Source: an uncultured Pelagibacteraceae bacterium
GTDB taxonomy: Bacteria; Pseudomonadota; Alphaproteobacteria; Pelagibacterales; Pelagibacteraceae
Reading direction: 5' to 3'
DNA length: 64,000 bases
NCBI GenBank assembly: GCA_902570695.1
Contig: CACFZE010000001.1
Coordinates: forward strand, 62,001 to 126,000
Shown here: piece after piece, positions 376 to 54,641 of the stretch
How the letters are laid out: each line of letters starts with the position of its first letter
Numbering within the stretch: position 1 is the first letter of the stretch
Notes under the pieces: model-generated
Database searches by the model: none
What the model saw: the letters and a program-made list of their open reading frames with translations, nothing else
What the model was told of the DNA's origin: nothing
Program-made: the position numbers and the translations under genes

Positions 376-1665
376 TTATCTACCAATACTAAAATAATTT
401 ATTTTATTTTTTTTCATTTCAGAAATTGAATAAAGATTTCTCATATCAAAAACTTTAAAATTTCTTTTTTTGGTAATTTTTTTAAAGTTGAGTTGTTTAA
501 ATTCATTCCATTCTGTATGAATAATTATTAAATCTGCACTTTTACAAGCATCTTTTATATTTTCAAAAAAGTTTATATTTTTAGATTTTAATTCCTTCTT
601 CTTACCAGTTGGTTCGTAATAATTTACATGTGCGCCCTTCCTTGCTAAAAATGATATCATTTTTAATGAAGAGGACTCTCTCATGTCGTCAGTGCCTGGT
701 TTAAAGGTAACACCCAAAAATGTAATATTTTTATTTTTAATTTTGTTATTCATTATTTTGCTAATTTTATTTAATAATAAATTAGTTCTTTTCTCATTTG
801 AATTAATTACTGATTTTACAACTGAAAGATTTGTTTTAAACATTCGACCAGTTGAAACAAGTGCTCTTGTATCCTTTGGAAAGCATGATCCACCATAGGC
901 TGGGCCAGCTCGTAGAAATCTGCTTCCAATCCTTTCATCTAAACCCATGCCAATTGCAACTTCTTTAACGTCTATATTTGATTTTTCACATAAATTGGCT
1001 ATTTCATTAATAAATGTAATTTTAGTTGCTAAAAAAGCGTTTGATGCATATTTAATTAATTCTGCTGATCTTCTAGAAGTATGAAAATATCTTCCACCCT
1101 TCTTAATTAAAGGTAGATATAATTTTTTCATAATTTTATTTGCTTTATTGCTACTAGTACCTACAACAACTCTATCTGGGAATTGAAAATCTCTGATAGC
1201 TTCACCTTCTCTTAAAAATTCAGGATTAGATACAACATCGAACTTATTTTTATTTTTATTTGATTTTAAGATTTTTGTAATTTTATCACCAGTGGTGACT
1301 GGGACTGTAGATTTAGTAACTATTATTTTATACCTATTTAGATTAGATTTTATACTTTTGGTCACATTAAATACATATTTCAAATCAGCTTTATTATTTT
1401 TAGTAGGAGTTCCAACGCAAATAAATATTATATCTGACTTTTTTATTGAGCTAGAAATATCTGTTGTAAATAAAAGTCTTTTTTTTTTTAAATTTCTTAC
1501 AACTAATTCTTGAAGACCAGGTTCATAAATTGGGATTATTCCTTTACTTAATTTTTCTATAGTTTCTTTATTAATATCAACACATGTAACTGTATTACCT
1601 AAGTCAGAAAAACAAGATCCAGTAACTAACCCAACATAACCAGACCCTATAATACAAATTTTCAT
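376..1665 (-). CDS. ugd: UDP-glucose 6-dehydrogenase
   Basis: This enzyme oxidises UDP-glucose to UDP-glucuronate with two NAD+, supplying surface polysaccharide or lipid precursors. The 429-residue protein is full length for the bacterial family. It opens with a Rossmann motif (GSGYVGLVTG, residues 7-16), followed by VDIN at the end of the second strand. The catalytic cysteine lies in GGSCFPKD near residue 260, and the C-terminal UDP-binding domain begins near residue 320 (TFLGVTFKPGTDDMRESSS). The gene overlaps the end of galU by 4 nt, so the pair that makes and then uses UDP-glucose is co-transcribed. Confidence 0.95.
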   Translation of the reverse strand: MKICIIGSGYVGLVTGSCFSDLGNTVTCVDINKETIEKLSKGIIPIYEPGLQELVVRNLKKKRLLFTTDISSSIKKSDIIFICVGTPTKNNKADLKYVFNVTKSIKSNLNRYKIIVTKSTVPVTTGDKITKILKSNKNKNKFDVVSNPEFLREGEAIRDFQFPDRVVVGTSSNKANKIMKKLYLPLIKKGGRYFHTSRRSAELIKYASNAFLATKITFINEIANLCEKSNIDVKEVAIGMGLDERIGSRFLRAGPAYGGSCFPKDTRALVSTGRMFKTNLSVVKSVINSNEKRTNLLLNKISKIMNNKIKNKNITFLGVTFKPGTDDMRESSSLKMISFLARKGAHVNYYEPTGKKKELKSKNINFFENIKDACKSADLIIIHTEWNEFKQLNFKKITKKRNFKVFDMRNLYSISEMKKNKINYFSIGR

Positions 1666-2477
1666 AGCTTAGAAATTTCAATTCCAGATTTAATATAACC
1701 TTTCATGGATCCACAATCTAAATAATTACCTGCAAATTTATGTCCAATGAATAAATATTGATCTAATATCATTCGCCTTATTGCATCAGTAACATGTATT
1801 TCACCACCTTTACCTTTTTTTTGATTTTTTAGATAATGAAAAATTTTCTTTGATAATATGTACCTACCTATTATCGCATTATTTGAAGGAGCATCTTTAG
1901 TATTAGGTTTTTCAATTACATCTGCAATTTTAAAATTTAATTTGTCAAAATTTTTTTTAATTGAATAAATTCCCCAACGATCTACATTGTTTTTTTTAAC
2001 TTTCATGCTGGCCATTACAGATCCTTTTAATTTTTTATGAATCTTTATCATATCTTTTGAACAATTTTTTTTCATAATTAAATCATCAGGTAACAACATT
2101 AAAAAATAATTATTTTTTATAAACTTTTTAGTTTTTAGTACAGCATCACCAGTTCCCATGGGTTTATTTTGATAAACAAATTTGATTTTTTTTCTAAAAA
2201 AAAGAATTTTTTTGTACTCTTTAATTATTCTAGGATCTTTCTTTTTTTTAATAATTGATTTATAAAAATTATCATTATTGAAATATTTCTTTATCATCTC
2301 TTTTTTTTTTGAAATAATAAAAATTATTTCATTTACACCAGCTTCAATACATTCATCTAAAATATACTCAATACCTGGTTTTCCGTTTATTGGAAGCAGT
2401 TCTTTAGGAAAAACACTTGTCAAAGGTAGCAAACGTGTACCCAAACCAGCAAGAGGAATAATAGCTTGTTTAATCAT
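1662..2477 (-). CDS. galU: UTP--glucose-1-phosphate uridylyltransferase
   Basis: GalU makes UDP-glucose from UTP and glucose-1-phosphate. The 271-residue protein starts with the nucleotidyltransferase signature LAGLGTRLLPLT, followed by FPKELLPI with the catalytic Lys and YILDECIEAGV. Later motifs include MGTGDAVL, LLPDDLI (metal-binding Asp), VIEKP and GGEIHVTDAI near residue 225. Length and motif order match bacterial GalU rather than RfbA. It is first in a two-gene operon with ugd and diverges from panC across a 34-nt gap. Confidence 0.93.
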   Translation of the reverse strand: MIKQAIIPLAGLGTRLLPLTSVFPKELLPINGKPGIEYILDECIEAGVNEIIFIISKKKEMIKKYFNNDNFYKSIIKKKKDPRIIKEYKKILFFRKKIKFVYQNKPMGTGDAVLKTKKFIKNNYFLMLLPDDLIMKKNCSKDMIKIHKKLKGSVMASMKVKKNNVDRWGIYSIKKNFDKLNFKIADVIEKPNTKDAPSNNAIIGRYILSKKIFHYLKNQKKGKGGEIHVTDAIRRMILDQYLFIGHKFAGNYLDCGSMKGYIKSGIEISKL

Positions 2478-2491
2478 TAAGATGTTTTACT

Positions 2492-2497
2492 TATAAT
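2492..2497 (+). promoter_or_regulatory. panC: Candidate -10 element for panC
   Basis: A perfect TATAAT lies 14 nt before the panC ATG in the 34-nt divergent gap shared with galU. No convincing -35 hexamer is seen at 16-18 nt. Transcription from here would give a leader of only about 8 nt. Confidence 0.35.
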
Positions 2498-2511
2498 CAT
2501 ATTTATTAAAA

Positions 2512-3315
2512 ATGAAAATTTTAAAAAATATTTTTGAACTAAATAAGGCAGTAAAAAATTACAAAAATGTTGGATTTGTACCTACAATGGGGGGAATTCA
2601 TAAAGGCCACGTATCTTTAATAAAAATTTCACAAAAAAATAACAAAGAAACAATAGTTAGTATTTTTGTCAATCCAACTCAATTTAATCAAAAAAAAGAT
2701 TTTAAGAATTATCCTAGAAATATAAGAAAAGATATTTCGATATTAAAAAAACTTAAAGTTAATTATTTGTTTTTACCAGAGGTCAATGAAATATATAAAA
2801 ATAAAATGAAAAATTTTAAACTTAATAAATCTGATAAAATTTTATGCGCTAAATATAGAAAAGGTCATTTTGAGGGTGTATTAAACGTGATGAATAGATT
2901 GTTATCTATTGTTAAATCTAGGCATGTATATATGGGTGAAAAAGATTTTCAACAATACGTGTTAATTAAAAGAATATTAGGAAAAAAATATAAAATAAAT
3001 ATTATTAGTTGTCCTACCATTCGAGAAAATAATAAAATTGCTTTATCTACAAGAAACGAATTGTTAAATAAATCATCTATAAAAAAAGCATCAAAAATAG
3101 CCATCAAATTGGATAAGATTAAAAGACTATCACAAACTAATAAATATGTGGATTTATCAAAATATAAATATGAGCTTGAAAATAAATTTAAAATAAAGAT
3201 TGATTATCTTGAATTTAGAGATGAAAAAAAAATGAAATTAGATAATTTTAAATTTAAATATAGACTATTTATTGCGTATCATATTAATGGAGTAAGATTG
3301 ATTGATAATTTTTGA
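2512..3315 (+). CDS. panC: Pantothenate synthetase
   Basis: PanC condenses pantoate with beta-alanine using ATP to form pantothenate, the coenzyme A precursor. The 267-residue protein has the family motifs in order: FVPTMGGIHKGH (residues 23-34, nucleotide-binding HxGH type), FVNPTQF, RKGHFEGVLNVMNRL, YMGEKDFQQ, and LSTRN (the KMSKS-like loop). It is slightly shorter than typical PanC (about 280) and very Lys-rich. It is a lone plus-strand gene; its stop touches the stop of the convergent mgtE gene with no bases between. Confidence 0.93.
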   Translation: MKILKNIFELNKAVKNYKNVGFVPTMGGIHKGHVSLIKISQKNNKETIVSIFVNPTQFNQKKDFKNYPRNIRKDISILKKLKVNYLFLPEVNEIYKNKMKNFKLNKSDKILCAKYRKGHFEGVLNVMNRLLSIVKSRHVYMGEKDFQQYVLIKRILGKKYKINIISCPTIRENNKIALSTRNELLNKSSIKKASKIAIKLDKIKRLSQTNKYVDLSKYKYELENKFKIKIDYLEFRDEKKMKLDNFKFKYRLFIAYHINGVRLIDNF

Positions 3316-4689
3316 TTATAAAAAATAAGCTCCTACACCTAAGAAAGATACAAATCCAATTACATCTGTTATTGTTGTAACAAATACACTAGAAGAAATT
3401 GCAGGATCAATTTTCATTTTATTTAATGTTACAGGCACTAAAATACCAAAAAGACCAGCAACTATCATAGTTAAAACCATTGAAATTGAAATTATTAGAG
3501 AGAGCTGAACATCATTAAACCATATCTGAACAATCAAAGAACTTATAATTGCAAAAATAACTCCATTTAAAACTCCAATATTAAATTCTTTAATAATATT
3601 ATTCGTAAAATTATTTTTTGTTAAATCCTGTGTTGCTAAAGATCTTACTGTGACAGCTAATGTTTGCATGCCAGCGTTACCACCCATTGATGCTACGATT
3701 GGCATTAAAAAAGCCAATACTACCATTTGCTCTATAGTAGCACCGAATAGACTAATGCAATAAGTTGCTAGAAAAGCTGTAAACAAGTTTAATAACAACC
3801 AGTTAAATCTTCTCTTCGTTTTTGTTATTACTCCATCAGTTATTTCTTCATCGCCTACTCCAGCTAACCTAAGTACGTCTTCTTCAGCTTCCTCTTTTAA
3901 TACTGTTAGAACATCATCATAAGCTATCATCCCGACTAATTTGTCAGACTTATCTACTACAGCAGCTGAACTCAAATTATAATTTTCAAATAAATTACCT
4001 ACTTCCTCTCTATCCATATCAACCGGTATTAGTGTTTGAGATTCAGCCATAATAGACATCATTTTTGTATCTCTTGGAGTTCTTAATACTCTTGACGAAG
4101 GAACTGTACCAATGGGTTTGAATTCTTGATCAACAATAAATATTTCTAGAAATTCTTCAGGAAGTTCTTTATTTTCTCTAAGATAGTCTATCGTTTGTCC
4201 TACAGACCAATTACTTGGTATAGCTGTAAATTCACGCTGCATTAATCTAGCAGCAGAATCTTCTGGATAACTTAAGCTTTCAAGTAATGCAAATCGATCT
4301 TTTGGAGGTAATGAGCTAAGGATTGTATTTTTTTCTTTTTCATCAACATTTTCTAAAATCTTAATTGCATCGTCTGACTCTAAATTTTTTAGTATATTCA
4401 CAATTGAATCAGATGATAAATAAGCAATCATCTCAGACTGAATTGATTCGTTTAATTCAACAAAAACTTCAGGATCAACTTTGAAACTATTTAATTTTAT
4501 TAAATTTTCTCTATCATTTTGACTTAAATGTTCAATTATGTCGGCAGCATCTGCCGGATGCATAGCATTTAATGAATTTGTAATAAATTCGGCATCATTT
4601 GAGGCGATTTTATCTGTGACAACTTTGATGAATTCTTTGTTAAATTCAAAGTTAACTTTTTTATCTTTTATTTTTTTCACTATAGTCAT
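3316..4689 (-). CDS. mgtE: Magnesium transporter MgtE
   Basis: This is an inner-membrane Mg2+ channel/transporter gated by cytoplasmic Mg2+. The 457-residue product has the family order. The N-terminal helical N domain (residues 20-130) contains AMHPADAADIIEHL and two repeats of the type LPPKDRFALLESL. A pair of CBS domains follows (about 135-255), then about five membrane helices from about 290 with the hallmark MPIVASMGGNAGMQ. The frame is open to 4836, but I chose the ATG at 4689. The first family-like residues begin there, an AGGT ribosome-binding sequence lies about 8 nt upstream, and the longer start would overlap lipB. Confidence 0.9.
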   Translation of the reverse strand: MTIVKKIKDKKVNFEFNKEFIKVVTDKIASNDAEFITNSLNAMHPADAADIIEHLSQNDRENLIKLNSFKVDPEVFVELNESIQSEMIAYLSSDSIVNILKNLESDDAIKILENVDEKEKNTILSSLPPKDRFALLESLSYPEDSAARLMQREFTAIPSNWSVGQTIDYLRENKELPEEFLEIFIVDQEFKPIGTVPSSRVLRTPRDTKMMSIMAESQTLIPVDMDREEVGNLFENYNLSSAAVVDKSDKLVGMIAYDDVLTVLKEEAEEDVLRLAGVGDEEITDGVITKTKRRFNWLLLNLFTAFLATYCISLFGATIEQMVVLAFLMPIVASMGGNAGMQTLAVTVRSLATQDLTKNNFTNNIIKEFNIGVLNGVIFAIISSLIVQIWFNDVQLSLIISISMVLTMIVAGLFGILVPVTLNKMKIDPAISSSVFVTTITDVIGFVSFLGVGAYFL

Positions 4690-4750
4690 AAAATTTACCT
4701 GTAATTTAGTTGGCACTATTAATACAAAATAAAAATAATACAAATTTATA

Positions 4751-5374
4751 ATGACAATAGAGATCAAAAAGTCAGTAAAACCAATAAAATATAAATCTGC
4801 GATAGATATACTTGAAGATAGACTGGAGCAAATCAAAGTAAATAAAAATAAAGAACTTATTTGGATACTTGAACATGAAGAGATTTATACTGGTGGAACA
4901 AGTTTTAGTGATAAAGAGATTTTAGATAAATCTATAAACTTTATTAAAACAAATAGAGGGGGAAAAATAACATATCATGGTCCTGGTCAATTAGTTTTTT
5001 ATTTTGTGATTGACTTAAATAAAAGAGGTAAAAATATAAAAAAAATTATAACTGCAATCGAAAAAACAATCATAGATACTTTAAAAAACTATAATATAAA
5101 GTGTTTTGCTGACAGGAAAAATATTGGAATTTGGTTTGAGCACAAATCTGGTAAAATAGATAAAATTGCAGCAATAGGTATAAAAGTAAAAAAATGGATT
5201 GCTTATCACGGTTTTGCATTAAATATCTCTAATGATCTTGATGTATACAGAAAGATAGTTCCTTGTGGAATTAGAGATAGGGGGGTTTCAAATTTATCTA
5301 AGATCAAGAAACAAAATTATAAAAATATTGAAAATGATTTGATAAAAAATTTTTTATCAAACATTAAAAATTAA
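4751..5374 (+). CDS. lipB: Octanoyl-[ACP]:protein N-octanoyltransferase
   Basis: LipB moves octanoate from acyl carrier protein to the lipoyl domains of 2-oxoacid dehydrogenases and the glycine cleavage H protein. The 207-residue protein carries [16 protein letters not shown] near residue 77, [21 protein letters not shown] with the conserved Lys near 145, and the catalytic Cys in IVPCGI near 178. It diverges from mgtE across a 61-nt gap, and its 3' end overlaps the convergent pseudouridine synthase by 11 nt. Confidence 0.93.
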
Positions 5375-6272
5375 GTCTTTTGGTTTTTAACATATTTCTA
5401 AAATAATCTGGAGGCGTAGCTCTAAAAGTATATTTTTTCTCGTTTATTTTAAATTTTATTTCATAGGAATGTAACATTAGATTTTTATTATTTATTTTTG
5501 AGTTATTTGTTGAATTATATTTTTTATCACCAATTATGGAGTTTCCTAAATTAAATAATTGTTTTCTTAATTGGTGCTTTCTTCCAGTTATTGGGTTTAG
5601 CTGAATAAAGGTCGCATTATTATTTTTATCTAAAATTTCATATTTTGTTTCAGCTTTCTCAACAATTTTTTTTTTATTTTCAAATCTTATCAAATCATCT
5701 TTTATTACACCTTTATCAATTAAAATTAATTCACCATTACATATTGCTAAATATGTTTTATAAACTTTTCTTAATCTAAAAAGTGAAGTAAGCAGTTGGG
5801 CTGTTTCCCTATTCTTTGCGATTATAAACACTCCAGAAGTATCCTTATCTAATCTGTGAACAGAATAAGGTTTCTCGTCTCTAAATAAATTACTTTTTGC
5901 AAATATATCAATAATATTTTTTTTAGATTTTGTACCACCCTGTACCGAAATTCCTGATTGTTTATTTAGAACAACAAAATTGTTATTATTTTCAATAATT
6001 AAATCTTCATTTTCTTTTATAATTTCATTGCTAGGATTATATTTTTTTTTGAGTTGCACAACTTTTTCCTCAAAATTTAAATTAAAAATATTAAGTTTGT
6101 CACCCGTTTTAACTTTTTGGGAGCTTTTTACTTTTTTTTGATTTAATTTTAATTTTCCATTTCTTAGGTTTTTTTCAATTAGTCCTTGTGGAATTTTTCC
6201 TAAATGATTTCGAATAAATCTATCAATACGCATGTCATTAAAAGATTTATCTACGTTAATTGATTTTTTCAT
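5364..6272 (-). CDS. rluC: RluC-like 23S rRNA pseudouridine synthase
   Basis: RluA-family enzymes isomerise uridines in 23S rRNA to pseudouridine. The 302-residue protein has an N-terminal S4-type RNA-binding region (about residues 7-65). The catalytic domain follows, with the signature [10 protein letters not shown] containing the catalytic Asp, then [10 protein letters not shown] and [19 protein letters not shown] is closer to RluC than to RluD, but the exact target uridines are inferred. It follows the lyase-like gene by 2 nt, so the two are probably co-transcribed. Confidence 0.8.
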
Positions 6273-6274
6273 TT

Positions 6275-7192
6275 TTATTTTAATTCATTGCAGCTATAAT
6301 TTTCCTGATCTAGCCTAAGGTCTTTGCACTTTTTACCTATAGCTATGGAGTCATAATATACAATTGTATCAGCTCTTTTCGGAGGATTACCTTTATGCAT
6401 TATATTAAACCTATTTATATTACTTTTGTATATTCCAAACTTCATATACGACTGTTTACTTATATTATTATTAGTCAACCCATTGTAATTAACTACAAGT
6501 TCATTATTAGCCCAAATCTTAATAAAACTCTTATTTGGCCAATCAACAAATTCTATATTAATAACAAAATCATTCCATTTACCTTTTACATTATTTGCTT
6601 TTAAAATTTTATAAGTGTCAAACCCTCCAAAACTATGATTTACAAAATCTGTCCATTGCAAATCTCCATTTGGTGCAATTCTAAACATAAAATTTACTGG
6701 ACCTGCTTTAGAATGTATTTGCCATATAGTATTACTTATAGGAATAGTAAATTCACTATTGTCCGGGATATAAATACTAAATTTAAACCATGTATTTTTA
6801 GACTTTAATCCTAACATGCTAACTTCGGATCTTTCTCTAAAGGTATTGCACTCGTCTGATTTTCTTTGTTGACCACAATCACCATCACCGTTTTTAAATT
6901 TCCAAGCAATTTTGCCAGATCTAACAATTTTATTTTGAATTAACAATCCATCTTTAGGAAAGTTATATAAAGGCGATAAGTGCATTCTGCATTTGGTTTT
7001 TTTTCCATGACTCCATTGGCAATCTATATTTGATAAGTCTATTAAATCTTTTTCATTATCTAAATTAAACCAAGGCATGTTATCGTCACCTAAAGTATAA
7101 AATTTTAAGCCATCAATTTTTGGTGGATTTGCTTTTAAATTATTAGTTATAAAAAAAAATATTATAATTATTTGAAAAATTATATTTTTCAT
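6275..7192 (-). CDS. Secreted protein of the heparin lyase I (Polysacc_lyase) type
   Basis: This 305-residue protein has an N-terminal hydrophobic signal sequence (residues 1-21, cleavage likely after NLKA). A beta-rich body follows, with Cys pairs that could form disulfides in the periplasm. The middle part NTFRERSEVSMLG, WFKFSIYIP, TIWQIHSKAG and KWNDFVINIEF resembles the jelly-roll fold of heparin lyase I type polysaccharide lyases, including the R-E-R-x-E segment. The family call is from pattern memory, so the substrate and even catalysis are uncertain. It lies after the end of the ribosomal cluster and before the rluC-like gene. Confidence 0.5.
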   Translation of the reverse strand: MKNIIFQIIIIFFFITNNLKANPPKIDGLKFYTLGDDNMPWFNLDNEKDLIDLSNIDCQWSHGKKTKCRMHLSPLYNFPKDGLLIQNKIVRSGKIAWKFKNGDGDCGQQRKSDECNTFRERSEVSMLGLKSKNTWFKFSIYIPDNSEFTIPISNTIWQIHSKAGPVNFMFRIAPNGDLQWTDFVNHSFGGFDTYKILKANNVKGKWNDFVINIEFVDWPNKSFIKIWANNELVVNYNGLTNNNISKQSYMKFGIYKSNINRFNIMHKGNPPKRADTIVYYDSIAIGKKCKDLRLDQENYSCNELK

Positions 7193-7257
7193 TTAGTTAA
7201 TATAAAATACTAGATAATTGTTTTACAACATCAATTAAATAAAATATGAATTAAATA

Positions 7258-7701
7258 CTAAGCTGTGGCTTGCTTTTTGTCTTCAACTTTTGGTGTATCT
7301 TTAGTTGGGTTCTTTTTCTTTTTATCAACTCTTTTTGCTTCAACATCTCTGTCTACAAATTCAATTACTGCCATTGGCGCATTATCACCATATCTAAATC
7401 CAGCCTTTATAATTCTCGTATAGCCACCTTTTCTATTTTCATATCTCTTAGAAAGAGTTTTTTTAACTTTATTTGTAGATTTAATGTCTTGCAATTTCGA
7501 AATTAAAGTTTTTGTATTAGATAAAGTGTCTTTCTTGCCTAGAGTTATTATTTTGTCTGCTTGAGGTTTTAAAACTTTTGCTTTGGGCAATGTAGTTGTA
7601 ATTTGCTCATACTTTATTAATGAGTTAAGCATATTTTTAATCAGAGCTTTTCTATGTTCTGAAGTTCTGTTGAGCTTTTTATAGCCCATCTTGTGTCTCA
7701 T
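7258..7701 (-). CDS. rplQ: 50S ribosomal protein L17
   Basis: L17 helps form the region around the peptide exit tunnel on the large subunit. The N-terminus [20 protein letters not shown] is the standard L17 opening, and the core ends with [16 protein letters not shown]. The 147 residues exceed the usual 120-130 because of a Lys/Asp-rich tail after residue 121. It is the last gene of the alpha operon, overlapping rpoA by 1 nt. No clear terminator hairpin is seen in the 65 nt after it. Confidence 0.96.
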
Positions 7702-8729
7702 TAGATAGCTTCCTCTAGTTTTTTAGATAATTCAGCAATATTATCTGGTGGCCAGTTCGGAATTTCCATTCCAAGATATAATGACATCCCTGTTAATACT
7801 TCTTTAATCTCATTTAATGATTTTCTTCCAAAATTAGGTGTTCTTAACATTTCACCCTCTGATTTTTGAACTAAATCACCAATATAAATAATATTATCAT
7901 TTTTTAAGCAGTTCATTGATCTAACGGAAAGCTCTAATTCATCAACTTTTCTTAATAAGTTCTTATTAAATTCTGGCTCTGATGGTTGCTCTTTAACAAT
8001 AACTTCTTGTGGTTCATCAAAATTAACAAACATGCCTAATTGATCTTGAAAAATTCGAGCAGAATATGCGACTGCATCTTCTGCAGAAATTGACCCATTT
8101 GTTTCAACTTCCATGGTTAATTTATCATAATCTAAAGCTTTTCCTTCTCTAGCAGTACTTACTGAGTAAGATACCTTTTTAACTGGACTAAACAATGAGT
8201 CTATTGGAATTAATCCCAGAGGCGGTTCCTCTGGTTTGTTCATATCAGCTGATATATATCCTTTACCAGATCCTACTGACATTTCCATATGAAATTTAGT
8301 ATTTTCATCTAAATTGCAAATTACTAAATCTGGATTTAATATTTCAATATTAGCGACAGGTGTTATATCAGAAGCTTTTATTTCTCCTGGACCTTTAGCA
8401 TCAAGTATTAATTTTTTTTGTTCATCTGATGAACTCTTAAGTGCTAATGATTTTACATTTAACACTATATCTGTAACATCTTCTCTTACACCTTTGATTG
8501 ATGTAAATTCGTGTAAAACACCATCTATTTGAATAGATGTTACCGCTGTACCCCTTATTGAGGATAAAAGTATTCTTCTAAGTGAGTTGCCCAAAGTTAA
8601 TCCATAACCTTTTTCCAGTGGTTCAGCAGTAATTTTTGCAAATGTTTTATCATCACTTATTTGAACATCTAGTTTTGCAGGCTTGATTAGTGATTTCCAA
8701 TTTTTTGAATTTACTTCTGTTTGCTCCAT
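7701..8729 (-). CDS. rpoA: DNA-directed RNA polymerase subunit alpha
   Basis: The alpha subunit dimerises to assemble RNA polymerase and contacts upstream promoter DNA and activators. The 342 residues show the N-terminal assembly domain (about 20-240; [22 protein letters not shown] and GYISADMN). A linker joins it to the C-terminal domain (about 260-335; [21 protein letters not shown] and [12 protein letters not shown] with the helix-hairpin-helix). It overlaps rpsK and rplQ by 1 nt each, so stop-start coupling is likely. Confidence 0.98.
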
Positions 8730-48008: not shown

Positions 48009-48347
48009 ATGGAACAAGAAACAAATGATTTAATAAAAAGTGAAATTGAAAATAATGATGTGTGTCTATTTATGAAAGGTACACCTGATGCACCCCAGTG
48101 TGGATTTTCAATGGCTACATCAAATATTTTAAAAGTTCTTGAAGTAAATTTTAAAGGTGTAAATGTATTAACAGATCAAAAGCTAAGAGAGGGTATAAAA
48201 GTATTTAGTGATTGGCCGACTATTCCTCAATTATATGTTAAAAACGAGTTTATTGGTGGATGTGACATCGTAAAAGAAATGTATGAGAGTGGAGAACTTG
48301 CTAAACTCTTTGAGTCTAAAGGAATAAATTTTAAATCAAAAAATTAA
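48009..48347 (+). CDS. grxD: Monothiol glutaredoxin (Grx4 type)
   Basis: This cytosolic carrier handles [2Fe-2S] clusters, working with BolA. The 112 residues contain VCLFMKGTPDAPQCGFSMA with the CGFS active site (Cys near residue 35), WPTIPQLYVKNEFIGGCDIVKEMY, and the ending [10 protein letters not shown] diverged copy of its last 13 codons is found at 51142-51183. The stop lies 1 nt from the stop of the convergent autotransporter gene. Confidence 0.95.
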   Translation: MEQETNDLIKSEIENNDVCLFMKGTPDAPQCGFSMATSNILKVLEVNFKGVNVLTDQKLREGIKVFSDWPTIPQLYVKNEFIGGCDIVKEMYESGELAKLFESKGINFKSKN

Positions 48348-48348
48348 T

Positions 48349-50886
48349 TTAAAACTTTTTAATCATTGAGATTTTAGCGTTTTTATCAAGATTTTCATTA
48401 AATTCTTGGTCTAATTTGAAATTGAAATCTAGGCCATAAATATTTTTTGCAACATTAAGTCCAGCAGAAAAATCTTCAGTTCCTCCAAATTGCATTGCAT
48501 ATTCTGTTTCACGTTTAGATTTAAAGTTTAAACCAAATGAAAATGTATCCGTATGTTCGTGTTTTTCACCTTGAATACGTTTGTAGCTAGTGTTGATTGA
48601 TAAGTTATTTTTGGAGTCGTAACTAAAGCCAACTTCAGATGTTAACATATAATCTGATATTGTATCTTGTGTATAGGTATAAGTTGTGCTGGTATCAGAC
48701 ACGTAATTTAATTTAGTTACAGACGAGTCGGAAAAATCTAAGCCAAATTCAATTAAGCCAAATGGTTTTATTTTACTGTCATTGAATTTAACAAGATTAT
48801 TTACACCAAATCCTAAAGATAAAAGTCCACTTTTTACTTCTTGATCATCATAAGAAAGAGCGTTCGTTCCAACCTCTTGGTATCCCTCAAGTTCTGTATA
48901 TCCAAGATCTACTCTTAAAGCTGGAACTAAATTAAAGTTTCCTTTGTCAATTGTTTTTCCAAAATTAACCGATCCAAATATTTGATTTCCATCTCTTGAA
49001 GCAGTTAATGTATTAGAATCAGACTTTCGCTCAATATCGCTTTTAATTTTTCCAATTCCGATTGATCCTTCGATAAAATTATTATCGTCTAATGGTCTTG
49101 TTCTGTACATTGAAATATTATAATTTTTGCTATCGATACCACTTCCGTTAGATCCTATATCAGTATCGCTTTGCCCATATTGAATAGCAAAACCATAAAT
49201 ATCATTATCATTTATTTTTTTATCAAATCCAAAAGCAATACCTTGGCTATCTATTTCCTTTTCAGATGATGTGCTAGTATCACCAATTTTAGTAACACTT
49301 ATTGAGCCTTCTGACCAAGTAGACCAATTATCAGACAAATTTAAATTTTCATTTATATCAATCGATGCCGTAATAACATTTGATAATGATGCAAGCATTG
49401 CATTTGAAAATTGAAATTTAATATTCTGGTTGGTTAAATTAGTTTCTTTTCTATGATGTCTTAACCATTGCATACGATTAATTACTGGAGTTGTAACGTA
49501 TTGCAAAATTCTCTTTGGTGCTTCTGTTTGTGCTTCAATTGATCCAACAACATCTTTATCGGTCAATGGATCAATAGATGAAGTAGTTTCACCTGTTGTA
49601 AAGTTAAGAGTGGTAGAATTAGTAAACCCTGCATAAGACGCGCTATCAACATCATCAAAAGCGGTAGCAGCAATAGTAATATAATAACTAGTTTCCCCAT
49701 CTAGTGTGCTTGAGGGGTTAATTGTAATAATGGTTGAACCAGAACCGGATACCAATCCGCCTGCAACATTGATTGTCTCAACGGTTGAATTATCGGATGA
49801 TTTTTTAATTAATATATTTCCACTTTCAGCATCAACAGCTTCAGAGAATGTTAAAACAATATTATCATTTACTCCAACACTAGTTGCGCCGTCACTAGGG
49901 GAAGAAGAAGATAGAGTTGGTGCGGTATTGATTAATTCAAAACCTGTAGTTAATGTATATTCATCCACACTGTGTGTGCCAAGAGGTGCTGTCTTGTCCG
50001 TAATAAACATTTTTGTTCCATCATTATTAAAGGTAATGCCTGTAGGATTAGTACCTTGAGAACTCACATCAAAACTACCCACAAAAGAAGCGGTGGAAAC
50101 ATCAAAGCCCGTAGAGAGCGTATATTCGTTAATATCATCTCCCGTATCGCCGGCAACAAACATTTTTTTTCCGTCGTTGCTAAATGCTAGGCCTTGAGGT
50201 GAAGTATCTTGGGACTGGGTTACAAAGCTACTATCATAGGAGGCGGTGGAAACATCAAAGCCGGTCGATAGTGTGTATTCAACAACTTCATCAGAAGAAT
50301 TTGCAGCATTAACAAACATTTTTGTACCATCTGAATTGAATGCTAAACCATTTGAACCACCTGCATTGGAAGAAATACTTAAATTACTATCGTAGGATGC
50401 AGTAGAAATATCGAAACCTGTAGTGAGATGGTATTCAAAAACTCTTTGATTCTTCCACCCTGCTACAAACATTTTTGTTCCATCGTTGTTAAATGCTAAG
50501 CCTCTTGGGTTGGTATCTTGGGAATGAACACTAAATAAACTATCATAGGAAGCGGTTGAAATATCGAAGCCTGTAGTGAGATGGTATTCTCGAATGGCAT
50601 TGGAATTATCTCCAACAACAAACATTTTTGTACCATCGTTGTTAAATTTTATGTCTTGTGGGTATCCTCCTTGATAACCGCTTAAGATGTAAACGTTGAT
50701 ACTATCAACATATGTAACTCCCGCAAAAACTTTAGATGATGATAGTATTAAAATAATGAAAAGAATACTCGAACTCTTAATAAAATTTTTAAATAAAATA
50801 AGTATATAGTCTGTAGTTTGCTGACTAAAACAAAGAGCTAAAAAATTTTTAGATAGTTTGTATGTTTTATAAAATAATGTATTCAT
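48349..50886 (-). CDS. Autotransporter-like surface protein A (beta-propeller repeats, Ig-like domain, beta-barrel)
   Basis: The 845-residue protein has a long, hydrophobic signal region ending KVFA (residue 55). Five repeats of about 52 residues follow (about 64-317), each with GLAFNNDGTKMFV and EYTLSTGFDVSTAS, resembling beta-propeller blades. One SbsA/Big_5-type Ig-like domain spans about 320-431. A C-terminal outer-membrane beta-barrel (about 520-845; WSTWSEGSISV, RDGNQIFGSVNF, DDQEVKSGLLSLGFG) ends in Phe, as BAM substrates do. It is probably displayed on the cell surface; ligand unknown. The barrel is homologous to that of the neighbouring surface protein B. The 35-residue extension before the signal core may mean a later start. 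Confidence 0.75.
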   Translation of the reverse strand: MNTLFYKTYKLSKNFLALCFSQQTTDYILILFKNFIKSSSILFIILILSSSKVFAGVTYVDSINVYILSGYQGGYPQDIKFNNDGTKMFVVGDNSNAIREYHLTTGFDISTASYDSLFSVHSQDTNPRGLAFNNDGTKMFVAGWKNQRVFEYHLTTGFDISTASYDSNLSISSNAGGSNGLAFNSDGTKMFVNAANSSDEVVEYTLSTGFDVSTASYDSSFVTQSQDTSPQGLAFSNDGKKMFVAGDTGDDINEYTLSTGFDVSTASFVGSFDVSSQGTNPTGITFNNDGTKMFITDKTAPLGTHSVDEYTLTTGFELINTAPTLSSSSPSDGATSVGVNDNIVLTFSEAVDAESGNILIKKSSDNSTVETINVAGGLVSGSGSTIITINPSSTLDGETSYYITIAATAFDDVDSASYAGFTNSTTLNFTTGETTSSIDPLTDKDVVGSIEAQTEAPKRILQYVTTPVINRMQWLRHHRKETNLTNQNIKFQFSNAMLASLSNVITASIDINENLNLSDNWSTWSEGSISVTKIGDTSTSSEKEIDSQGIAFGFDKKINDNDIYGFAIQYGQSDTDIGSNGSGIDSKNYNISMYRTRPLDDNNFIEGSIGIGKIKSDIERKSDSNTLTASRDGNQIFGSVNFGKTIDKGNFNLVPALRVDLGYTELEGYQEVGTNALSYDDQEVKSGLLSLGFGVNNLVKFNDSKIKPFGLIEFGLDFSDSSVTKLNYVSDTSTTYTYTQDTISDYMLTSEVGFSYDSKNNLSINTSYKRIQGEKHEHTDTFSFGLNFKSKRETEYAMQFGGTEDFSAGLNVAKNIYGLDFNFKLDQEFNENLDKNAKISMIKKF
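49594..49929 (-). other. Ig-like (SbsA/Big_5) module in surface protein A
   Basis: Residues 320-431 (TAPTLSSSSPSDGATSVGVN through TTLNFTT) closely match each of the three Ig-like modules in the neighbouring protein B. Shared features are the VDAESGNILIKKSSDNSTVETI core and ATAFDD...SYAG, marking a shared and shuffled domain. Confidence 0.8.
49936..50697 (-). repeat. Five tandem propeller-like repeats in surface protein A
   Basis: Residues 64-317 hold five units of about 52 residues. Each unit carries FNNDGTKMFV followed by EY-LTTGFD-STASYDS. Five visible blades could close to a propeller only if the flanks contribute or the number varies between strains. Conserved DNA (for example the Asn-Asp-Gly-Thr-Lys stretch) could support slippage or recombination. 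Confidence 0.8.
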
Positions 50887-51052
50887 TTTTTAATAACAAC
50901 AACGTAATATAAAAAAATAAATTTTTTAATAATAATTCTGGATATAAAATTTTAGTTAATTAAAAAACTTTAAATAAGTTTATTTTGGGTTTTAATTGTT
51001 CAAAAATAGCTAAATTGCTTAATTTTTCTTTAACAGTAATTTTAAAAAGGTG

Positions 51053-51146
51053 TTATCTAGAATAATATTCGATTACTAGATTTGGTTCCATTACAACTGG
51101 ATAAGGCACTTCTTCAAAAGAAGGAACTCTTACAAACTTAACTTTT
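51053..51146 (-). pseudogene. Remnant of a second rpsD: last 31 codons and stop
   Basis: On the minus strand the frame reads [20 protein letters not shown] followed by [10 protein letters not shown] and TAA. Over the last 30 codons this is identical in protein to the C-terminus of intact rpsD at 54024-54641. The DNA differs at seven positions, all synonymous (for example AGA/AGG, GAA/GAG, ATC/ATT, CTA/TTA, GTG/GTT, CCT/CCA, AAG/AAA). It therefore diverged while part of a working gene and then lost the rest. It ends abruptly where the grxD remnant begins. Confidence 0.9.
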
Positions 51147-51183
51147 TGAGACAAAAGGAATAAATTTTAAATCAAAGAACTGA
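51142..51183 (+). pseudogene. Remnant of a second grxD: last 13 codons and stop
   Basis: On the plus strand the frame reads [13 protein letters not shown] and TGA. Intact grxD ends [13 protein letters not shown] and TAA at 48347. Codon differences are mostly synonymous (CTC/CTT, AAA/AAG, AAT/AAC) plus one Ser-to-Thr change. It overlaps the end of the rpsD remnant at the shared string AACTTTTT. As at the real locus, the stop codon immediately abuts the stop of an autotransporter gene. Confidence 0.85.
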
Positions 51184-53928
51184 TCAAAATAACTTTCTAA
51201 AATTGATAGTAAAGCTATTTAAAAAAGTATCCTTATCATTTCTATAATGATCTAAACTTAAATTTAAATCTACATCATTTTTTAAATTCATACTAAAACC
51301 TAGTGTAACTTGACCATGATAAGTATCCTGGTCAGCAATTGCATTAGCATAAATAGTTGATGCATCGTTAATGTAATAAGCCTCAGATAATGAATTAACG
51401 GTTGTACTTTTTCCAAATTCAAATTTTAATAATTGAGTTATTATTCCACTTTCTATTTCAACCGATTTTGAATAGTTATAGCCTAACGATAAAGTTGCAC
51501 TTTTGACATTTTGATCATCATAAAAAACAGAGTCATCATCACCATTTTCTGTGTAGTCATCAAGCATAGTATATCCAAGATCTAACCTTGAGTAGTAGTT
51601 TGTATTTACTCCTTCAATAATATATTCCATGCTAGGCTCAAATAAATAAGTAAAACTTCCATAGATTTGTTTACCATCTCTTGTACCTTTGTTTTGTCCA
51701 CCCTCTACTGATCTCGCTAGATTTACCTCCATCTCACCTAATCCAATAGCAGCCTCAATATAGGTCCTTTCTTTTAATTTTATGCTTCCATATCCAAGTA
51801 TAGAAGTTGATGATGCATCCATGTTAGCTTCATTACTTCCGACCTGAGTTTTTTGCCAAGATTGACTTACTGCCATTCCAAAAGTTCTAGCAGCACTAAT
51901 TTTCTTATCGATACCAAAAGTTAAACCATCGCTATGTATATCTTGTCCCAGATTTTCTCCTTTATGACCTATTCTTCCAAACGAAAGATTTCCTTCAGAC
52001 CATGCGGCCCATTTTTTAGTCTCTTTTTTGGGTTTTAAGTATTTAATTGCTAGTGCATCGAATATTCTATCTGCAAATGGATCATTTAAATTCATGGCTA
52101 ATTCTATGTTTTGATTAAAAGAATTATTTTGCATTGGTCTTATAAAGTTCATTCTACTATTAACTCTATTCATTGATTGAGACATTGAATTGATAGCAGC
52201 TGCAGATTGATTTTTAATCAGTGTTTTCACCGTTTTGTTAAAAATTCTTCCCTTTTTAGTAATAAAGTTAAGTGCAGTTTTGCTAGATATACCGGCGTAT
52301 GAATTTCCGGCGGTATCATCAAACGCGGTTGCAGCTATTATCAAATAATATGAAGTATTAACTTTAAAATTTTTTATTGGATCAATAATAATTTTTGAAG
52401 TACCTGTACCTCTAACTCTATCGCTAGTTACAGCTATTGTTTCAAAAATGCTATCATCAGAACTTCTCTTAATTATTATATTCCCACTTTCAACATCTAC
52501 ATTTTCATCAAAGTTTAAAATTATATTTGATGAAACAGCTACATTGGCTGCATTATCTGCAGGAGTGGAAGTACTTAAAGTAGGATTTGCTGTATCAACT
52601 GTTGTAAAACTTAACGCAGTTGTACTTGAAATACCGGCATAAGAATTACTTGAACTGTCATCAAAAGCAGTACTATCAATTAAAACGTAATACTCGGTCG
52701 AACCATCAAAATCAGATGCTGGATTTATAGTAATTACTGTACCACTACTTCCACCTCCAATCATAAGTAATCCACTATTTCCAGTTACTTGATTGCTTGT
52801 AACACTAATGGTTTCAACAGTACTGTCATCTGAGGTTTTTTTAATTGTTATGTTGCCACTTTCAGTATCAACAGTTTCGCTAAAAGTAAGAACTATGTTC
52901 GCATCCACAGCAACATTAGTTGCATTATCAGCTGGACTAGACGAACTTAAAGTTGGCGCCGTTGTATCAACAGTTGTAAAACTTAATGCTGTTGTGCTTG
53001 AAATTCCTGCGTATGAATTACTTGAACTATCATCAAAAGCTGTAGCATCAATTAAAACATAGAACTCTGTTGATCCAGCTAAATTGGATGATGGATTAAC
53101 AGTAATTTGCGTTCCCCCACTACCACTTACTTGATTGCTTGTAACATCAATAGTTTCTATTGTGCTATTGTCAGACGTTTTTTTTATAGTAATATTTCCA
53201 CTCTCAACATCTACATTTTCATCAAAATTAAGAACAATATTTGCATCGACTGCAACATTGGTTGCATTGTCAGCAGGAGTAGATGAACTAAGAGTTGGTG
53301 CCGTAGTATCTGCAGCTGTTCCAAAAAATTCAATTTCATTAATTTGGTGCATACTGCCAGAAACAATTGAACTCACATAATATCTAAAATATGAATATGC
53401 TGATGGAGTATTGTAATCAACACCGCCACCTTCATATAAACGTACTTGTAATCGTGTTGAGCCCCACGGGGAGGTTCCATTATTATTGTAGACATAAATA
53501 TCTGTCCAATTCGATCCATCATTTGAACCTTGTATCTTCCATACGTCTGGGTCTCTGCTAGGAACATCATTTCCTGATGTAATTGTAAAACTATCGAGGA
53601 CGTACGCTTGTGAAAAACCTACTTGTATCCATTGCGTGGGTCCGTTACAGCACCATTTATCATTTGATGCTCCAACTTTATTATCAAATACATTATATGC
53701 CCCTTCAGCATGCCAATAATTTTCACTACTGGCACTAATTGAGCTCCAATTCCAACCAAGATTACTTCCATCAACTCCATCATTTTCTGGATCAGTAAGA
53801 TCATCACCTACCAAAGCACTTGTTCCGGTTCCTAAAACAGTGACCGAATAAGAACTTTCACTCCAACCAATTAAGATTAATAATAAGAAGAGTTTTAAAA
53901 ATAAACGACAAAAATTAAGTAATCTCAT
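51184..53928 (-). CDS. Autotransporter-like surface protein B (discoidin-like domain, three Ig-like repeats, beta-barrel)
   Basis: The 914 residues start with a clear signal peptide (1-28, LFLLLILIGWSESSYS). A discoidin or F5/8C-like carbohydrate-binding domain follows (about 55-205; YNVFDNKVGASNDKW, WIQVGFSQAYVLDSFTITSGND, WKIQGSNDGSNWTDIY, INEIEFFG). Three SbsA/Big_5 Ig-like repeats span about 209-556, then a linker and a beta-barrel (about 640-914; AWSEGNLSFGRIG, TRDGKQIYGSFTY, YDDQNVKSATLSLGY) ending in Phe. It is probably exported by Sec and inserted by BAM, displaying the passenger for binding glycans or other cells. The ligand is unknown. Confidence 0.75.
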   Translation of the reverse strand: MRLLNFCRLFLKLFLLLILIGWSESSYSVTVLGTGTSALVGDDLTDPENDGVDGSNLGWNWSSISASSENYWHAEGAYNVFDNKVGASNDKWCCNGPTQWIQVGFSQAYVLDSFTITSGNDVPSRDPDVWKIQGSNDGSNWTDIYVYNNNGTSPWGSTRLQVRLYEGGGVDYNTPSAYSYFRYYVSSIVSGSMHQINEIEFFGTAADTTAPTLSSSTPADNATNVAVDANIVLNFDENVDVESGNITIKKTSDNSTIETIDVTSNQVSGSGGTQITVNPSSNLAGSTEFYVLIDATAFDDSSSNSYAGISSTTALSFTTVDTTAPTLSSSSPADNATNVAVDANIVLTFSETVDTESGNITIKKTSDDSTVETISVTSNQVTGNSGLLMIGGGSSGTVITINPASDFDGSTEYYVLIDSTAFDDSSSNSYAGISSTTALSFTTVDTANPTLSTSTPADNAANVAVSSNIILNFDENVDVESGNIIIKRSSDDSIFETIAVTSDRVRGTGTSKIIIDPIKNFKVNTSYYLIIAATAFDDTAGNSYAGISSKTALNFITKKGRIFNKTVKTLIKNQSAAAINSMSQSMNRVNSRMNFIRPMQNNSFNQNIELAMNLNDPFADRIFDALAIKYLKPKKETKKWAAWSEGNLSFGRIGHKGENLGQDIHSDGLTFGIDKKISAARTFGMAVSQSWQKTQVGSNEANMDASSTSILGYGSIKLKERTYIEAAIGLGEMEVNLARSVEGGQNKGTRDGKQIYGSFTYLFEPSMEYIIEGVNTNYYSRLDLGYTMLDDYTENGDDDSVFYDDQNVKSATLSLGYNYSKSVEIESGIITQLLKFEFGKSTTVNSLSEAYYINDASTIYANAIADQDTYHGQVTLGFSMNLKNDVDLNLSLDHYRNDKDTFLNSFTINFRKLF
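52261..53304 (-). repeat. Three tandem Ig-like repeats in surface protein B
   Basis: Residues 209-320, 323-444 and 447-556 repeat the unit TAPTLSSS-PADNATNVAVDANIVL followed by ESGNITIKKTSD, ATAFDDSSSNSYAGISS and TALSFTTVD. Unit 2 has a Gly/Ser-rich insertion (GLLMIGGGSSG) and unit 3 is the most divergent. This suggests ancient duplication followed by a more recent copy of units 1-2. Confidence 0.85.
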
Positions 53929-54023: not shown

Positions 54024-54641
54024 TTACCTAGAATAATACTCAATTACTAAATTTGGTTCCATTACAACTGGATAAGGAACTTCTTCAAAAGATGGAACTC
54101 TTACAAATTTAACTTTTTTATTTTTTTCATCTAACTGTAGATATTCTGGAACTTCTCTTTCTTTGTTAGCAAGAGCAATATCAATTAAAGCAAGTTGTTT
54201 AGATTTATCTCTAATTTCAATCGTATCTTCTTCTTTAACCTGGTAACTTGCTATATTAACTTTTTTTCCATTAACTTTAACATGACCATGATTAATTAAT
54301 TGTCTTGATGAAAAAATAGTGTTTGATAACTTTGATCTATAAATTACAGCATCCAATCTTCTCTCTAATAATCCAATTAAATTTTCAGCTGTATCGCCTT
54401 TTTTCATAATCGCTTTCTTATAAACATTTCTAAACTGTCTTTCATTCATGTTTCCGTAATAAGACTTCAATTTTTGTTTTGCCTGAAGTTGAATTCCGTA
54501 ATCTGAAGGTTTTCCAGCTTTTGTTTGTCCATGCTGTCCTGGAGGATAGGCTCTTGTATTAAAAGGACTTTTGGGTCTCCCCCATAAATTTACTTTTAAT
54601 CTTCTATCTACTTTATGTTTAGAGTTTAATCTTTTTGTCAT
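54024..54641 (-). CDS. rpsD: 30S ribosomal protein S4
   Basis: S4 starts 30S assembly and is a translational regulator of the alpha operon in other bacteria. The 205 residues begin [28 protein letters not shown], contain an S4 RNA-binding domain ([32 protein letters not shown]) and end IEYYSR. A diverged copy of the last 31 codons lies at 51053-51146. A near-perfect promoter sits so close that the leader would be about 5 nt. Confidence 0.98.

Follow-up and report, generated by a model that had tools for sequence, protein, structure and literature searches.

The window, by which we mean the whole stretch of 64,000 nucleotides that was analysed, corresponds to positions 62001-126000 of contig C1 in an uncultured Pelagibacteraceae genome of 1.30 Mb and 27 contigs (G000, the source genome). 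Between the convergent core genes grxD and rpsD it carries a surface gene (A), the 3' tail of a second rpsD fused to the 3' tail of a second grxD, and another surface gene (B). Order and positions agree with the original prediction, as does the short string shared by the two tails, and the names of the core genes are also taken from it. grxD orthologues adjoin rpsD in relatives, and rpsD orthologues were found in 114/151 genomes. The features of the locus are:

48009-48347, forward strand: grxD (monothiol glutaredoxin), an open reading frame; left core gene and apparent left homology arm.
48349-50886, reverse strand: surface gene A, 845 aa; weakly beta-propeller-like front, Big_5 Ig-like domain, autotransporter beta-domain.
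50887-51052, no strand: upstream flank of A, which moves along with the cassette.
51053-51147, reverse strand: R', a leftover 3' end of a second rpsD (95 nt, stop included), 93% identical to the genome's own rpsD.
51140-51147, no strand: the microhomology AACTTTTT, common to the rpsD and grxD 3' ends; the join.
51140-51183, forward strand: G', the 3' end of a second grxD, 13 codons plus the stop.
51184-53928, reverse strand: surface gene B, 914 aa; F5/8 type C (discoidin-like) domain, three Big_5 domains, autotransporter beta-domain.
54024-54641, reverse strand: intact rpsD (ribosomal protein S4), an open reading frame; right core gene and apparent right homology arm.

Pfam scans of A gave matches to PF13205 (6.2e-16) and PF03797 (2.5e-36), and a match of its front part to PF08450 (0.00027) under the cut-off of that family. 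B matched PF00754 (1.2e-11), PF13205 (1.7e-45, in three stretches) and PF03797 (1.5e-19); the PF03797 matches of both genes are above the cut-off. Judged by these domains, both proteins are autotransporter-type with the C-terminal beta-domain of type Va, and their passengers are predicted to be exported to the cell surface. B is no relic, since it is under purifying selection (dN/dS 0.13-0.17); the dN/dS of A is 0.32, a value resting on few changes. The dS values given below come from a simple Nei-Gojobori count.

R' differs from intact rpsD at seven positions, all of them synonymous as had been noted before, and additionally at the junction base, which turns a K into a Q. The grxD tail was confirmed to consist of 13 codons and the stop. 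Searched for within the interval, the two tails score 145 and 72 bits and are thus not chance resemblances, as the best match in the reversed intervals reaches 42.8 bits and the best wrong-strand match in the real intervals 48.2 bits. Of the eight families of direct repeats in the window that are 40 nt or longer, they make up two, the grxD and G' tails pairing over 53 nt at 83% identity and the R' and rpsD tails over 100 nt at 91%. In four relatives with an empty site, microhomology of at least 8 nt is found at 1.3e-4 to 3.6e-4 of the cut-point pairs when whole rpsD is combined with whole grxD, and at 7.7e-4 within the last 150 and 80 nt. Chance microhomology of 3 or 4 nt is common (7-8% and about 2.5-2.8% of cut-point pairs, respectively). 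AACTTTTT is present in both gene ends at 26/157 loci.

When the 132-nt junction was searched against 399 genomes of the genus, a full-length match was seen, among the matches listed, in the source genome and in G077 (AG-898-G21) alone. G077 has the same gene order and the same interval length (5676 bp), and its junction is 98% identical. From position 48267, near the grxD end, through A to position 51171, a stretch of about 2.9 kb, 16 substitutions separate the two genomes (0.55%), as against a divergence of about 5-7% in B and in most of the core stretches; dS amounts to 0.014 in A, 0.20 in B and 0.41 in rpsD. The block formed by A and the scar ends between 48266 and 48628 on the left and between 51122 and 51214 on the right, with grxD tails near both ends. 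Its low divergence compared with B and the core genes indicates that the block was recently exchanged between lineages carrying older resident B alleles. These identity steps near the grxD and rpsD ends show that both core genes serve as homology arms, a role that the original prediction had proposed for them. Seven of the 16 substitutions in the block lie within 21 bp of gene A (50662-50682), beside a small indel, and are perhaps a small recombination or mutation patch.

Strains carrying only one of the two alleles had been predicted, and for B they were found. A scan of named genomes with B gave 17 loci, and B stands alone and at full length between grxD and rpsD in four of the genomes, AG-907-M07, AG-894-B06, AG-894-G18 and AG-915-G14. 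Furthermore, grxD lies directly before B in AG-900-I19, where B is cut by the contig end, and before a gene matching B from residue 204 on in AG-337-E19, and B adjoins rpsD on a short contig of AG-917-P19. Six of the single-cell genomes (SAGs) with B include grxD, and in four of these the sequence from the grxD stop into the B flank equals that of the G077 scar; AG-894-G18 is one base off and AG-915-G14 differs more. The scar of the window has one base different from those four in that part of the grxD tail. The hexamer GAGACA, the 5' part of the scar's grxD half, is absent from all six and present in G339 and G348, which suggests that the grxD half of the scar is a mosaic or that its exact donor lies outside the sampled genomes. 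Over its 44 nt, G' is closest to the grxD of G339 (95%), whose single gene is merely 51% like B.

Beyond the source genome and G077, a near-identical A was found in one of the 399 genomes, G013. There, purL, grxD and A share a contig; identity per 200 bp is 98.5-100% in A, and the flank formed by purL and grxD is 92-97% identical. The last difference before A lies at 48290 relative to G013 and at 48266 relative to G077, in both cases after about 5% divergence. A second contig of G013 (C25) starts in the flank of A and runs into an intact rpsD; its first 67 nt match with one difference, and this rpsD equals R' for 33 nt and then diverges. G013, which is 76% complete, has one autotransporter match at E<=1e-60 (two of three candidates scored), as compared with two each in the source genome and G077. 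Taken together, the sequences strongly suggest that G013 is the predicted A-only strain, although its locus is divided between two contigs, the roughly 215 bp in between being unseen. At the corresponding position of G284, a stretch 97% identical to the upstream flank of A is followed by an intact rpsD; R' matches this rpsD for its first 42 nt, beside a different single surface gene, and then diverges. The best rpsD end for R', among the matches listed, belongs to G337 (94% over 95 nt). The expectation that intact strains would have rpsD and grxD 3' ends exactly matching the whole tails was not borne out, as we found no such strain. A recent local copy of the genome's own rpsD and grxD, which had been named as a possible source of the tails, is ruled out, because the tails carry other changes and lead into the flanks of other strains.

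The occupancy of the site was surveyed by taking the rpsD 3' side from 162 other genomes of the genus, G013 and G102 among them, which together with the window gave 163 loci. These genomes were picked from those with rpsD matches (114/151; 295/399), long-enough contigs being favoured, and are therefore not a random sample. Six loci without grxD on the piece were set aside, leaving 157 with both genes. The site is empty in 104 of them, the distance between the stops of grxD and rpsD being -13 to 25 bp. The remaining 53 hold inserts of 602-8330 bp that fall into ten content classes, as assigned by grouping with BLAST and by Pfam scans of one or two representatives of each group. A single methyltransferase-like gene is found in 20 of the filled loci, a single surface gene in ten, a pair of 88- and 527-aa genes in seven and two surface genes in five. 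The same 88+527-aa pair is joined by a 232-aa FkbM-like methyltransferase in four and by a 227-aa methyltransferase-like gene in two, and two loci hold a 247-aa methyltransferase-like gene. One locus each contains three surface genes, a surface gene with two unassigned ORFs, and a surface gene with a sulfotransferase-like gene (at or just under the Pfam cut-offs). Surface genes thus occur in 18/53 filled loci and a gene grouped with methyltransferase-like proteins in 28/53. The gap between grxD and rpsD is a recombination hotspot and a general exchange point of this SAR11 genus that is usually empty. With its varied cassettes and mostly empty state it is not specific to surface genes, so the swapping of surface genes that had been proposed holds in that surface alleles are exchanged, but the site also takes methyltransferase-like and other cassettes.

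Several further loci were observed beside this survey. The single-contig genome G384 also has a surface gene at the site, with about 2 kb of the interval unread. In L191 (G356), twelve tandem ORFs of 187-207 aa, alike by eye and most with secretion-like N-termini, occupy positions 467-7731 and adjoin an ORF that ends like a methyltransferase-like cassette beside rpsD; there is no grxD within 8.5 kb. L121 (G001) has at least 14 kb of other genes beside rpsD, the last ORF resembling by eye the 247-aa methyltransferase-like cassette, and no grxD on the piece, and the site may hold a large island there. The pieces L202-L207, on which neither grxD nor rpsD is present, contain B-like surface genes (52-54%) beside other autotransporter-like matches and are possibly an HVR1-type array of SAR11.

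Two further genomes carry scars resembling that of the window. In G137, a fused tail separates two surface genes; its rpsD portion measures 87 nt, is 78% identical to the genome's own rpsD and contains stop codons, and its grxD portion measures 21 nt. The second of the two genes shares 93% identity with the only surface gene of G037, and the grxD end and gene flank are also as in G037; the first gene is 56% identical to the second. Taken alone, the 21-nt grxD tail scores 39.2 bits, which is within noise, and its assignment rests on place and flank. G069 shows grxD followed by a 77-nt rpsD tail (four residues changed relative to its own rpsD), a 17-nt grxD-like stretch and a gene, so that the first slot is empty. 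This gene is 91% like the single genes of G056, G029 and G111, and the 17-nt stretch has two mismatches to the same three strains and three to the next, which is within noise, so that here too the assignment rests on place and flank; an alternative alignment gives 102 nt of rpsD at 81% and no grxD part. The breakpoints differ over the three scars, lying 95, 87 and 77 nt from the end in rpsD and 44, 21 and, if real, 17 nt from the end in grxD, and decay rises from the window through G069 to G137. The microhomology at the junction is 8 nt in the window, about 4 nt in G137 and, if the grxD part is real, about 3 nt in G069; the latter two lengths say little, because 3-4 nt are common by chance. 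Such varied breakpoints and decay point to repeated illegitimate joins and argue against a functional site that is being kept. Similar scars have formed at least once more, in G137, and probably twice, in G069.

A clear scar is absent in three of the six loci with several surface genes (G143, G150 and G348), and the spacers of G150 and G348 contain no tails; other routes to tandems must thus exist. In G348 (L170), grxD and rpsD enclose a row of three surface genes, the last of which is 76.5% identical to A over 554 rear residues. Two candidate remnants were rejected. An rpsD remnant between the two genes of G143 scored 43.7 bits, which hardly exceeds the reversed control (42.8) and falls short of the best wrong-strand match (48.2, L099), and was left uncounted. 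A grxD-like match of 49.1 bits just after grxD in L167 is probably no scar and likely cassette sequence, since the grxD frame of the query (L044) overlaps the start of the 88-aa cassette gene. Exchange within genes is also supported by apparent mosaics: the second gene of G150 resembles B (74%) in the front half and A (62%) in the rest, and in G138 a stretch similar to A (86%, residues 80-435) is combined with a rear part of 55%.

We explain the tandem, with a probability of about 0.7, by an illegitimate join at a short microhomology together with homologous exchange in the core genes, a combination that resembles homology-facilitated illegitimate recombination. Papers on that process reportedly concern Acinetobacter, Pseudomonas stutzeri and pneumococcus. 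A cassette would normally be swapped by homologous recombination through the flanking core genes, and because of such swapping most strains would carry none or one. In the ancestor of the tandem, DNA of an A-type donor would have recombined with a B-type strain by homology on one side, probably in grxD/purL. On the other side the end would have been illegitimate, the rpsD of the A strain, cut 95 nt from its end, being joined at AACTTTTT to the grxD of the B strain, cut 36-44 nt from its end. A would thereby have been added and B kept, with both core genes intact and the fused tails left as the scar, and the block of A and scar would later have spread among B-bearing lineages by ordinary homologous recombination. 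The identity steps near grxD fit a homologous resolution of the other end; later exchanges could also produce them. G069 would be the clearest one-step case, because an insertion into an empty site leaves just its layout. The original prediction had two complete loci joined end to end; the junction and the parents were found, but a one-sided insertion into a single-gene strain suffices, and we infer this order of events.

As regards the entry of donor DNA, a ComEC model matched none of 59 genomes of the genus that were at least 90% complete (control 10/14), and a DprA model had no match in the source genome (control 11/14), so that the classical uptake route is unsupported. ComEC was thus undetected in these 59 genomes despite the signs of recombination at the site.

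A different order of events would begin with a duplication, in which a unit of grxD tail, cassette and rpsD tail was duplicated by slippage between the rpsD and grxD ends at the microhomology, and a different allele later took the place of one copy by homologous recombination. Tandem duplication with breakpoints in rpsD and grxD leaves exactly such a scar, allele replacement at the site is evident, and the matches of R' to G013 (33 nt) and G284 (42 nt) would fit a replaced first copy; these short matches agree with later exchange under the one-sided and the duplication-first history alike. However, none of the six multi-surface-gene loci among the 157 holds two near-identical genes, the slot mates of G137 being 56% identical, and the rpsD-tail scar of G069 with its empty first slot needs an extra loss step. 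We consider this history unlikely, though credible. That the fused rpsD-grxD tail is instead the attachment site of a mobile cassette would agree with the position of the cassettes between the two stop codons in 53/157 loci, as with a fixed target. Three scars with three breakpoints share no constant core, however, the tails decay, and no integrase family was found in the 12 cassette proteins scanned with Pfam, with which the other ORFs were grouped by BLAST. The differing breakpoints and the decay rule out a fixed attachment site, and a site-specific element is very improbable.

Chimeras occur in single-cell and metagenome assemblies, and several of the close relatives are assemblies of these types, so an artefact of assembly or whole-genome amplification had to be weighed as well. 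The same junction recurs at 98% in G077, a genome with about 5-7% divergence in B and the core flanks, and the scar of G137 is decayed, with stop codons, and hence old. The presence of the junction in a second, diverged genome largely rules out an assembly chimera, in keeping with the original prediction, and leaves the chance of such an artefact next to negligible. A more far-reaching possibility is that the tandem acts as a reversible two-slot store, in which recombination between the paired direct repeats would drop A or B and the block of A and scar could move as a ready-made add-on into any B strain. If so, a population could keep and trade surface alleles without a mobile element; we regard this combined proposal as doubtful.

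SAR11 bacteria are among the most abundant in the sea. For the turnover of surface genes in their small genomes, in which ComEC was undetected, the site offers fossils of the process: it shows empty, single and double occupancy, both parents, scars in varied decay and one block moving between lineages. The mechanism is thereby made testable with existing single-cell and long-read data. The benefit, we infer, would lie in the variation of exposed proteins under phage or grazer pressure.

SAR11 has been reported to recombine widely (PMC7542561, PMC12374537), general hotspots of horizontal transfer have been treated (PMC5635113), and merodiploid tandems arise in transformed pneumococci (PMC3784515); these statements, like the comparisons that follow, refer to excerpts of the papers. 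Among the matches listed from the open-licence literature, neither this site nor a fusion of housekeeping tails separating surface alleles was found to be described, and glutaredoxin and ribosomal protein S4 were both absent from the excerpt of a study on SAR11 ecogenomics (PMC7318151). The hypervariable region HVR1 of SAR11 contains tandem autotransporter genes (Wilhelm et al. 2007, PMC2217521), of type V and varying in number between strains as here, whereas neither rpsD nor glutaredoxin is matched in the main text of that paper, and the passages compared describe no housekeeping-gene scars. Small variable segments from species-level comparisons (PMC2884548) are likewise short, lie between conserved genes and have been proposed to arise by illegitimate recombination; tandem pairs of alleles with core-gene tails fused as at our locus are absent from the portion compared.

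Replacement flexible genomic islands of aquatic prokaryotes are exchanged by homologous recombination (Lopez-Perez et al. 2014, PMC4033161). As in these islands, different genes occupy one site in related strains (104 empty, 53 filled), exposed structures are involved, and substitution changes sharply at the borders, as seen between the source genome and both G077 and G013. Replacement islands are present in all strains and encode exposed structures, whereas here 104/157 loci are empty and surface genes make up 18/53 of the filled ones; the exchanged unit comprises one to a few genes, and a further allele can be placed next to an existing one, leaving a scar. Homology-facilitated illegitimate recombination (PMC3240628) has one homologous and one illegitimate end, and non-homologous sequences are joined in it, often at a short microhomology, as at our junction; it was shown experimentally there and is proposed here, in a genus in which ComEC was undetected. 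The same process has been proposed for the T6SS immunity gene arrays of Vibrio (Kirchberger et al. 2017, PMC5361080), which also combine one homologous with one illegitimate end, keep the older gene and retain partial gene ends. The old effector is displaced in Vibrio, whereas both surface genes are complete here, and our leftovers are the ends of flanking housekeeping genes. A and B match autotransporter and adhesin-type domains and do not form an effector-immunity array. With the Vibrio arrays and the replacement islands as close analogues, the earlier statement that no system of this form had been described was too strong: the tandem is real, recurrent and well explained, and is a variant of known processes rather than a new system.
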